Shown here: one piece after another, positions 30,942 to 36,308 of the stretch | Position numbering within the stretch: position 1 is the first letter of the stretch | Layout of the letters: each line of letters starts with the position of its first letter | DNA from: a virus | Strand: one strand, 5' to 3' | Length of the DNA: 38,480 bases | IMG/VR virus record: IMGVR_UViG_3300042146_000011 | Coordinates: 1-38,480 of that record | Notes under the pieces: model-generated | The model's database searches: none | What the model was told of the DNA's origin: nothing | The model's input: only the letters and a program-made list of their open reading frames with translations | Made by a program: the position numbers and the translations under genes

Positions 30942-31505
30942 ATGAGCACTCAATTGAAGGTGCTGGCTGTGTGGGCGTTACTGGTGTTTGGTGCTAACAT
31001 AGTACCATCGCAGAGTGAAGCATTATCCCTCACACCAAACACCGTCCCCGTTGAACTTAAAGTTGATCTGAAACAATCCAGTGTAACAAAGCCTGAAGTG
31101 TGTTATGCTAACGTCCAGTGTCGCAAGCTAGCTGAAGCTGTCTTCTTTGAAGGTCGCGGTGAGCCAGTAAAGGGCCAGTACGCAATAGCATACACGATCA
31201 TTAATCGGAGAGATTCAGGTAAATATGCCGATGATGTTCACGGCGTTGTCAATCAGAAACGTCGAGGTATTTGCCAGTTCAGCTACATGTGCCAAATCAA
31301 AGCTAAAGACCGTCGAACGGCCATCGGTAACGATGATCAATCGTGGCAGAAGGCGTTAGATGTGGCATACAACACCTACTTCTATGAAGCAGCCGACCCT
31401 ACAAAGGGTGGTGAGTTCTTTCATACGAAGAAAGTGAAACCGATCTGGCGACATCAGTTACAACCTGCTTTGGCATTGGGTAATCACATTTTCTATAGGA
31501 GTTGA
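30942..31505 (+). CDS. Secreted SleB/CwlJ-type cell-wall hydrolase
   Basis: 187 residues. An N-terminal signal segment (KVLAVWALLVFGANIVPSQS, ending near SEA at about 27) suggests export. From about 60 the Hydrolase_2 core appears: LAEAVFFEGRGEPVKGQYAI with the catalytic Glu, YTIINRRDSGKYADDVHGVV, CQFSYMC, and a closing GGEFFHTKKVKPIW. Family members cleave peptidoglycan glycan strands. It lies in the early operon, unlike the late GH19 endolysin at 35757, so it may act in entry, superinfection exclusion or wall remodelling. Four Cys could form disulphides outside the cytoplasm. Confidence 0.85.
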   Translation: MSTQLKVLAVWALLVFGANIVPSQSEALSLTPNTVPVELKVDLKQSSVTKPEVCYANVQCRKLAEAVFFEGRGEPVKGQYAIAYTIINRRDSGKYADDVHGVVNQKRRGICQFSYMCQIKAKDRRTAIGNDDQSWQKALDVAYNTYFYEAADPTKGGEFFHTKKVKPIWRHQLQPALALGNHIFYRS

Positions 31506-32527: not shown

Positions 32528-32781
32528 AAGAACATTGGTTGATGAGATCCTACGGCAAACGTCGTTGGACGATCAGTGGTCATGACTCAGTCGAAGAGGC
32601 TAAAGAGGCCGCTCGCAAATTCATTGCCTCTGGTCATATCTTTCCAGATGGAACTCGATTGTATGTTGAGTCAAACGTCCACATCGGGGTTGTCTACGGC
32701 AACACTATTCAAAACTACATGCCGGCCTATGATGTTAAAAAGGTAATCGCTGGTTATCCCAACCATGAGTTGCACCTATGA
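32524..32781 (+). CDS. Small protein of unknown function
   Basis: 85 residues. It begins MKEHWLMRSYGKRRWTISGH, basic and Trp-containing, then a helix (SVEEAKEAARKFIASG) and strands (TRLYVESNVHIGVVYG). The order suggests a small alpha/beta domain; no family recognised. It overlaps the HAD gene by 4 nt and gene 59 by 4 nt, so all are translated together. Confidence 0.65.
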   Translation: MKEHWLMRSYGKRRWTISGHDSVEEAKEAARKFIASGHIFPDGTRLYVESNVHIGVVYGNTIQNYMPAYDVKKVIAGYPNHELHL

Positions 32782-33386
32782 ATGGTCTTGAAGCGTACAA
32801 GACCTTTCTCGGTATGGGTCTGCACTTCCGTGGCAACCTCGATGGATGGAAATACAACTTCAGCGGTAAGTGTAAGCCTGAGACGTTTGCTACCAAGAAG
32901 CGTCTCGTGTACCAGTATGCGAAGATTGAGCGCGATCGTCCGACTAAGCTTGACCAGATCAAGTTTTTCTACCCTGCGTTCAAGTCTGGTTATGTGAAGC
33001 CTGATGCGATCGGTATGATGCATGGTTGTCACAGTCGGTTCGAGAAAGAGTTCGGCTTTGGTCTTGTTTCGCGACATAAGGCATGGATTGAAGGATTGAT
33101 GAAGGAGCATATCCTTCTCAGTTTCTTTGAACTCTTTGCCTGTAGCGAGATGCTACCTAAGTTCTATCAGTTGTACGCTGAGAAGCATATGACACACGAC
33201 CAAGCAGTTGTATTATGCCTCGTCGTTCCTGAGCTACTAAATACGGTAGTGTCTAATGAGCCGTTTGTATTTGAGGCATGGAAAGTTAAATTAGAGTTTG
33301 ACATGAAGTTCATGCAACTTTATATTAGCGGTCCACTTCTGAGACAGCTTAAAGACGCTACAGTAGAAGCATTCAAAAAACAGTAA
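32778..33386 (+). CDS. 59: Helicase loader gp59
   Basis: 202 residues (T4: 217). gp59 loads the gp41 helicase onto gp32-coated forks. The N-terminal region GLEAYKTFLGMGLHFRGN, then GWKYNFSGKCKPETFATKKR and LVYQYAKIE, has the layout of T4 gp59 (KYDVIKYN...). The C-terminal half is helical with many aromatic residues. Location directly before gp32 and after gp33 matches T4. A strong promoter lies inside its 3' end and should drive gp32. Confidence 0.85.
   Translation: MNGLEAYKTFLGMGLHFRGNLDGWKYNFSGKCKPETFATKKRLVYQYAKIERDRPTKLDQIKFFYPAFKSGYVKPDAIGMMHGCHSRFEKEFGFGLVSRHKAWIEGLMKEHILLSFFELFACSEMLPKFYQLYAEKHMTHDQAVVLCLVVPELLNTVVSNEPFVFEAWKVKLEFDMKFMQLYISGPLLRQLKDATVEAFKKQ
33298..33326 (+). promoter_or_regulatory. 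Sigma70-like promoter inside gene 59, driving gp32
   Basis: TTGACA, 17 bp, TATATT: only one mismatch to consensus in total. It lies 100 nt before the gp32 start, fully within the gp59 coding sequence. Confidence 0.68.
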
Positions 33387-33425: not shown

Positions 33426-34400
33426 ATGGTCGACTTCGCAAAACTTCGCAGTAACCGTGGTTCCACTCTGTCCAAACTGACCGAGAAGCTGGAAACTCTG
33501 AACAAGGGCTCTAGCACCCAGAAAGATGAGCGTCTGTACAAGCCCGGTTTCGACAAGAAAGAAGGCAAGGGCTACGCCGTCATTCGTTTCCTTCCTGCAA
33601 AAGAAGGTGAGCATTTTGTTCGTGTGTTCAGTCACGCATTCAAAGGCAAGGATGGCTGGTACATCGAGAACAGTCGTTCGACTATCGGTGAAGAAGATCC
33701 GGTCGGTATCGCTAACACCCTGTACTGGAAGAAAGGCGAGAACGAAGGCAACGAGTCGTTCAAAAACATCGCTCGGGCTCGCAAGCGCAACACCAAGTAC
33801 TTCGCCAACGTTTACGTGATCAAAGATACTGTGTCGACTGATTGGAATGGTAAGAACGCCATTTATGAGTTCGGCGGTCAAATCTTCAAGAAAATTGAAG
33901 CAGCGGCCAAGCCTGAGTTCGAAGATGATCAGCCGATGGATCCGTTCGATCTGTGGTCTGGTGCAGACTTCAAGATCAAGATCGTCGGTAAAGAGATTCC
34001 TGATCAGCGCAACGGCGGCAAGACTGTAGTTCCTAACTACGAAAACAGTGAGTTCGACCGCGTGTCCGAACTGTTTGAAGGTGACGACGCCAAGAAAGAA
34101 GAGCTGTTCGGTAAGACCTACGACCTGTCTGAGTTCCTGAAAGTCAAGACTTTCGAAGAACTGGCTGTTCGCTTCAAGAAAGTGACTGGCGAAGCGCACA
34201 ACAAACTGGAATCGGGTGACCCTGCTGAATCGGTTGCAGCGCGTCTGGAAAAGCAAGCTGACCTGGACACCAACGTTGACAACGGTGATGATGCAGCGGG
34301 CAAGTCAGTTGATGAAGCGCCTGAGCAAACCTCATCGTCTGATGCAGTAGAAGGCGAAAGCGTTCTGGACATGTTCAAGCGTATGGCCGAACAAGCCTAA
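33426..34400 (+). CDS. 32: Single-stranded DNA-binding protein gp32 (no cysteines)
   Basis: 324 residues (T4: 301). It coats ssDNA in replication and recombination. The N-terminal basic region (LRSNRGSTLSKL) serves cooperativity, the core includes KGYAVIRFLPAKEGEHFVRV and GWYIENSRSTIGEEDPVG (78-94), then YFANVYVIKDT and the acidic C-terminus ending LDMFKRMAEQA, which recruits partners. T4 gp32 holds zinc with one His and three Cys; here His70 remains but the Cys positions are Ser83, a gap and Gly94, and the protein has no Cys anywhere. SD AAAGGTGA lies 7 nt before ATG. A terminator follows. Confidence 0.94.
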   Translation: MVDFAKLRSNRGSTLSKLTEKLETLNKGSSTQKDERLYKPGFDKKEGKGYAVIRFLPAKEGEHFVRVFSHAFKGKDGWYIENSRSTIGEEDPVGIANTLYWKKGENEGNESFKNIARARKRNTKYFANVYVIKDTVSTDWNGKNAIYEFGGQIFKKIEAAAKPEFEDDQPMDPFDLWSGADFKIKIVGKEIPDQRNGGKTVVPNYENSEFDRVSELFEGDDAKKEELFGKTYDLSEFLKVKTFEELAVRFKKVTGEAHNKLESGDPAESVAARLEKQADLDTNVDNGDDAAGKSVDEAPEQTSSSDAVEGESVLDMFKRMAEQA

Positions 34401-34461: not shown

Positions 34462-34980
34462 ATGATCAAACACCTTCTGAGTAGACATTACGACCCGTCG
34501 CGTTACGTGCACCAGCACATCGATCATGACCAACGTATTCTGACCGTGTTACTTCACAACCTGTCAGGTCAATACGTTGGCTTTCAACAGTACCGACCAG
34601 ACATCAAAGAGAAGCGCCATAACGATCCGCGTGAATCGCGCTACTTCACATACGCACCAAGAGATACAAGCGCCCTGTGGGGCCTTGAGAGCTACGACAG
34701 CAGCAAAGCAGATATCTACGTTGTTGAAGGGATCTTCAAAGCGGCGACACTGCATAGCGTGGGCCTGAATGCGCTTGCTGTCTTGACGGCGAACCCTGTG
34801 AAGATGCAGTCATTGCTTTGGCTGTTGAGTCATAGTCACAATGTCATTGCGATTGGTGACAACGATGCAGCAGGGGCGCAACTGGTCAAGCTCGTGGGTC
34901 GAGGTTTTCAGAGTGATGATCTTGACGAAATGCCACTGGAGGACGTTTACCAATTAATCCAAACAAAACGCTTGACATGA
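34462..34980 (+). CDS. Stand-alone TOPRIM-domain protein
   Basis: 172 residues. After an N-terminal beta region (ILTVLLHNLSGQYVGFQQYR; then RESRYFTYAPRDTSALWGLE) the TOPRIM fold shows YVVEGIFKAATLHSVG with Glu89, NALAVLTANP, and VIAIGDNDAAGAQ with the D133-N-D135 pair. The end (DLDEMPLEDVYQLI) resembles primase-type TOPRIM tails. No zinc finger or helicase domain is present, so it is not a full gp61-type primase. It could be a nicking enzyme or a primase partner. SD GAGG lies 7 nt upstream. It follows gp32's terminator. Confidence 0.84.
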   Translation: MIKHLLSRHYDPSRYVHQHIDHDQRILTVLLHNLSGQYVGFQQYRPDIKEKRHNDPRESRYFTYAPRDTSALWGLESYDSSKADIYVVEGIFKAATLHSVGLNALAVLTANPVKMQSLLWLLSHSHNVIAIGDNDAAGAQLVKLVGRGFQSDDLDEMPLEDVYQLIQTKRLT

Positions 34981-35732: not shown

Positions 35733-35758
35733 AAAGGGCCTTAATCGGCCCTTTTGTT
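35733..35758. terminator. Bidirectional terminator between early and lysis units
   Basis: AAAGGGCC (35733-35740), 6-nt loop, GGCCCTTT (35747-35754), then TGTT on the plus strand; on the minus strand the stem is followed by GTTTTGG. It separates converging plus and minus units; the minus gene stops at 35757. Confidence 0.82.
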
Positions 35759-36308
35759 ATTTCAGCACTTTCAATGCCTTGTTGTAGAACTCGACTCGTT
35801 CAGCGAGCCCGTTGACACCACCATTGATCCGTCTAGTGATTGTCTCGAACGCCGAGATATCAGCAAGATCATTCAACTTGCGTGAATTCCAGAACCATGC
35901 GGCAGACAACGCGGCATATTTTGGCTGTTCCAAAAGTTCAGGTGTCTTCAACAAACGATCATCACCAAACAACCCCTTGCTACACGCCAGATAGTTGTCA
36001 TGACCTGTGATCTGAATCAGACCACGACCACGATACTTCTGACCATCCCCATCAGCTTCAGGTGTATTACCTAAACGCGCAGCAAGCGTGCCTGTGTCGT
36101 ACTTCGCCAGATATGCGTTGTTACCGAGTTCTTTCAGCCAGACAAACTGGCCCGACTCATGACCTACCTGTGAAATGAATGCAGCAGTGCGCAAGCGCGT
36201 GTTGATCAGATACTTGTCCATTGCTTCATTCAGACCAGGCAGCATAGCGTCAGCCATCTTGCCAGACTTTGGTAGAATTGCAACAAGTTGTTCTTTGGTG
36301 ATAGGCAT
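35757..36308 (-). CDS. GH19-type endolysin
   Basis: 183 residues. A glycoside hydrolase 19 (chitinase-like) lysozyme that should cleave peptidoglycan at lysis. Conserved parts: RTAAFISQVGHESGQFVWLK with the catalytic Glu in HESG, KYRGRGLIQITGHDNYLACS, and near the end FETITRRINGGVNGLAERVE. There is no signal peptide, so it would need a holin. SD AAGGA lies 6 nt before ATG. It follows a DUF1353 gene by 2 nt; both are read from the late promoter at 37403. Confidence 0.93.
   Translation of the reverse strand: MPITKEQLVAILPKSGKMADAMLPGLNEAMDKYLINTRLRTAAFISQVGHESGQFVWLKELGNNAYLAKYDTGTLAARLGNTPEADGDGQKYRGRGLIQITGHDNYLACSKGLFGDDRLLKTPELLEQPKYAALSAAWFWNSRKLNDLADISAFETITRRINGGVNGLAERVEFYNKALKVLK

Follow-up and report, generated by a model that had tools for sequence, protein, structure and literature searches.

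Until now, zinc has been regarded as fundamental to the structure of gp32, the single-stranded-DNA-binding protein of T4-like phages. The virus sequence studied here (IMG/VR record IMGVR_UViG_3300042146_000011, 38,480 bases, hereafter the window) carries a gene 32 whose product lacks cysteine altogether, which raises the question of what holds the former zinc subdomain together and how exceptional such a protein is. The original prediction was of a metal-free OB fold in a family that otherwise keeps its zinc-binding cysteines.

The identity of the protein (Table 1) is as had been claimed. Its ORF starts with ATG, the 324-residue translation contains no Cys, and it matches Pfam family PF08804 (E = 7.7e-34; 118 bits against a curated cut-off of 26.8), PHROG 224 (E = 7e-84), and the PDB entries 8gme, 2a1k, and 1gpc (about 1e-22 to 1e-26). 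In T4-like phages, gene 32 usually lies next to the gp59 gene, and this order is intact in the window, where the gp59-type gene ends 39 nt before gene 32. T4-like sliding clamp, clamp loader, ligase, Dda-like helicase, terminase, sheath, and baseplate genes are also present, and the closest named phage by gp32 is Pseudomonas putida phage pf16, at 76% identity. The phage is T4-like and related to pf16, and the protein is its replicative gp32, which by analogy with T4 gp32 would bind single-stranded DNA cooperatively and recruit partner proteins. Phage pf16 itself is T4-related, with possible cyanophage origins (PMC5587285).

Table 1. Gene 32 of the window, its upstream neighbour, and the residues at the zinc-ligand positions
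Feature	Position	Strand	Basis
gp59-type helicase loader, upstream of gene 32	32778..33386	+	PHROG 269 (E = 8e-9)
Gene 32, cysteine-free single-stranded-DNA-binding protein, 324 aa	33426..34400	+	ORF; Pfam, PHROG, and PDB matches
N-terminal segment resembling the T4 B (self-association) domain; helices 4-9 and 13-26, weakly predicted	33426..33500	+	AF2; homology to T4
Segment equivalent to the T4 zinc subdomain (residues 70-101: beta hairpin, short helix, loop, helix), no Cys	33633..33728	+	Alignment; AF2/DSSP
His70 (T4 His64), in SHAF context; present in all zinc-less (261/261) and all zinc-type (69/69) sequences	33633..33635	+	Alignment
Ser83 (T4 Cys77); invariant in the zinc-less class; directly before predicted helix 84-87, N-cap position	33672..33674	+	Alignment; AF2
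Asp91 (T4 Cys87); invariant in the zinc-less class; N-cap position directly before predicted helix 92-107; the next residue, Pro92, is also invariant	33696..33698	+	Alignment; AF2
Gly94 (T4 Cys90); 251/261 zinc-less sequences have Ser or Gly here	33705..33707	+	Alignment
Acidic C-terminal tail resembling the T4 A domain; predicted helix 313-323 at its end	34224..34397	+	AF2; homology to T4

Several other features of the window were noted in passing. The end of the gp59-type gene, upstream of gene 32, contains a strong sigma-70-type match (TTGACA-17-TATATT, 11 of 12) at 33298-33326. The 172-residue protein encoded at 34462-34980 covers only positions 150-337 of the 435 in the phage DNA primase family PHROG 849, with a weak Toprim match, and this may be a split or truncated primase. 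There are also two distinct endolysin-like genes, at 30942-31505 (PHROG 938) and 35757-36308 (PHROG 181).

The zinc ligands of T4 gp32 are His64, Cys77, Cys87, and Cys90 (PMC3012046). In the alignment, their equivalents in the window protein are His70, Ser83, Asp91, and Gly94, so the His-Cys-Cys-Cys set is absent. The original prediction was right that all three Cys are missing and that Ser83 and Gly94 stand in for two of them; it had placed a gap at Cys87 and did not mention that the fourth ligand is retained, as His70. We assign Asp91 to the Cys87 position, with the two-residue gap relative to T4 preceding it, because a zinc-type loop from a Vibrio phage has the same length as that of the window protein (ENCPSTIDLPCPCCAAN in the window, ENSRSTIGEEDPVGIAN with Cys in the Vibrio phage).

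To place the protein among its relatives, we collected 334 distinct gp32 sequences from six IMG/VR scans and 20 named phages; a gp32 match is present in 2401 phage records. The zinc-type His-Cys-Cys-Cys set is found in 69 of the 334, while 261 keep the His but lack Cys at each of the remaining three positions, counts that do not represent population frequencies because the scans return the best-scoring loci per query. One further sequence, of the zinc-less kind, has an insert and could not be parsed. No mixed or partial ligand set occurs among the 334 beyond three distant outliers with a single Cys each, namely Vibrio D510 (HGCR), Campylobacter F358 (YSCQ), and Vibrio SRILMA (ISCQ). The view that related phages keep the zinc-binding Cys is thus contradicted, and a metal-free OB fold, still the best-supported reading, is no peculiarity of this phage. 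Total absence of Cys is common too, since 212 of 258 zinc-less proteins with a length of 250 aa or more have none. With its invariant His, Ser, and Asp-Pro and no ligand Cys, the window protein is, judged by its sequence, unexceptional within a large zinc-less class, to which all 22 distinct pf16-like sequences belong too. Verified named members are pf16, S-ShM2, P-SSM2, S-SKS1, ACG-2014f, S-PRM1, Stenotrophomonas Moby, Klebsiella FKP10, and Salmonella Mansal, and the class also includes Ackermannviridae phages; the zinc type was verified for T4, CF1, KpF2, Lazarus, PX29, TG1, V07, and D491s. These zinc-less sequences are already public and plainly annotated as gp32.

The zinc-less loop is constrained. 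His70, Ser83, Asp91, and Pro92 are each present in 261 of 261 sequences of the class; a pattern-based reading had given Asn91 in two sequences, and the alignment shows Asp91 in all. Only 13 core columns are fully invariant, these four among them, and seven of the 13 fall within residues 70-101. For zinc-less pairs at a core identity of 0.65-0.70 (0.67), loop identity is higher, at 0.80; for zinc-type pairs, the two are about equal. That the loop varies less than the core in the zinc-less class indicates that it is under selection, as a maintained alternative and not a decaying site. Covariation of Tyr79, Glu81, Asn82, Tyr96, and Pro84 with zinc state gave no significance, there being too few independent pairs.

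Structures were predicted with AF2 from family alignments, and secondary structure was assigned with DSSP. For the window protein, the model (mean pLDDT 84.5, about 95 in the core) has a single OB-fold core as in 1GPC and superposes on 2a1k and 1gpc with a target-normalised TM of 0.82-0.85 and an rmsd of 3.2-3.5 Å (3.5 Å to 1gpc), in agreement with the earlier claim that the rest of the fold is conserved. In its subdomain, strands 64-74 and 77-82 are followed by helices 84-87 and 92-107. A zinc-type relative, L417 (mean pLDDT 83.3; target-normalised TM 0.89-0.91 to the T4/RB69 core), was modelled with the same elements at 65-75, 78-83, 85-88, and 93-102. Its Cys84 lies directly before helix 85-88 and its Cys92 before helix 93-102, which are the pre-helix places of Ser83 and Asp91 in the window protein.

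Ser and Asp are favoured helix N-cap residues. In T4 gp32, the zinc held by His64, Cys77, Cys87, and Cys90 ties the beta hairpin, the one-turn helix, and the longer helix together. In the zinc-less class, which keeps the His and has Ser83, Asp91, and Ser/Gly94 in place of the Cys, the DSSP boundaries in the predicted models suggest that Ser83 and Asp91 most likely hold the two helices by N-capping, and the invariant His70 probably makes polar contacts in the former zinc pocket. We consider it probable that the window protein has a metal-free, T4-like fold held by helix N-capping and polar contacts around His70. Binding of single-stranded DNA and partner contacts would then be as in T4, by homology.

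It is also conceivable that His70, Asp91, and Ser83 form a non-cysteine site for zinc, manganese, magnesium, or calcium, at which water is an additional ligand, and that the subdomain is still stabilised by metal. The original prediction had held that conserved His, Asp, or Glu residues making an obvious alternative zinc site would refute a metal-free fold, and such residues are present in part: a weak non-Cys site is compatible with the sequence because two of the four ligand positions, His70 and Asp91, never vary within the zinc-less class, and the fold is retained. However, this provides just two side chains well suited as ligands, and a Ser; at the fourth position there is Ser or Gly, or in about ten sequences Ala, Arg, or Thr; the zinc-less loop has no further invariant His or Cys; and the Asp and Ser at the helix N-caps are explained without metal. 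We regard such a site as unlikely.

A somewhat less probable alternative is that the Cys were simply lost, hydrophobic packing being enough and the replacing residues having no special role. OB folds without metal are common, and the rest of the core is conserved, but the replacements are not free, as the invariance of the Ser, Asp, and His testifies, and conservation is higher in the loop than in the core. A sequencing or assembly error, which had been raised at the outset, or a decayed gp32 copy can be practically dismissed. We found nothing in support of either; a loop of the same kind occurs in six independent contigs at 89-100% protein identity and in pf16, and the ORF and the gene order are intact.

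An unrooted tree was built without the loop, the zinc label having been chosen before the tree was made. Zinc-type sequences are scattered on it, with 14 state changes (bootstrap range 13-15), at least six of which are forced by well-supported branches, and a single zinc-type clade is rejected (AU p = 1.8e-67). For example, L275 (WLIDTCLTTMNQKCPVCEH) and L095 (WYIENSLTTLGQKDPVSEY) have opposite zinc states, with 87% identity outside the loop and 72% inside. It is somewhat favoured by these data that gp32 in T4-like phages switches as a unit, many times, between two stabilising cores, one a His-Cys3 site that binds zinc and the other a His-Ser-Asp set without metal, with almost no partial sites surviving. 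If so, either a fitness valley has been crossed repeatedly or the loop has been exchanged by recombination. We compared nucleotide and synonymous identity of loop and core in zinc/zinc, zinc-less/zinc-less, and mixed pairs. Exchange of the loop as a recombination cassette was not borne out, and neither it nor stepwise or rapid joint substitution is shown, because synonymous sites are close to saturation and the zinc loops do not stand out as similar to one another. This repeated all-or-none switch, not the window protein itself, is the interesting part.

Long matches in L405 and other contigs, considered as interrupted gp32 genes or introns, proved to be tandem paralogues. Such pairs occur in contigs L386, L400, L405, L408, L409, L410, L412, and L414 (one contig of 159,556 bases), for example at 1183-2097 and 2157-2786 of L405. 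A full-length zinc-type gp32 is directly followed by a core-only paralogue of ~215-235 aa, which lacks both the N-terminal segment and the acidic C-terminal one and has a zinc-less loop with Tyr replacing the conserved His.

The zinc domain of T4 gp32 is cited as essential for translational (autogenous) repression of gene 32 (PMC535899), and zinc removal weakens DNA binding (PMC10862658). In the gene 32 leader of the window we found no stable structure (z = +1.4) and no apparent T4-like pseudoknot, which weakly suggests that self-regulation, if any, probably proceeds without such a pseudoknot. When leaders were compared by zinc state, TTAA occurred 1.0 versus 0.54 times per 70 nt at similar A+T, with no clear link.

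Most of the sampled relatives appear to dispense with zinc, using a strictly conserved alternative, and the role of zinc can be tested directly by loop swaps between close relatives of differing state such as L275 and L095. A search of open-access papers, with most subscription journals outside its reach, gave no description of a zinc-less gp32 class or of the repeated all-or-none switch.

Compared with known gp32s, the window protein is closest to that of pf16 (Chakrabartyvirus), which over its whole length shares the identity given above, the same His-Ser-Asp-Gly set, and the same loop length, but has one Cys, at residue 240, which is not a ligand position. The cyanophage gp32s (S-ShM2, P-SSM2, ACG-2014f, and S-PRM1) likewise have a loop free of Cys, in which His, Ser, and Asp-Pro are invariant, and the same domain layout, although they are only about 37-42% identical and mostly have Ser instead of Gly at position 94. 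The T4/RB69 proteins (1GPC, 2A1K, and 8GME) share PF08804, the predicted core fold, the His64 equivalent, and the N-terminal and acidic C-terminal segments, whereas T4 gp32 differs in its Cys ligands, its zinc, and a loop two residues longer. The gp32s of Vibrio phages V07 and D491s have the same loop length as the window protein but are of the zinc type, with Cys at the positions of Ser83, Asp91, and Gly94.
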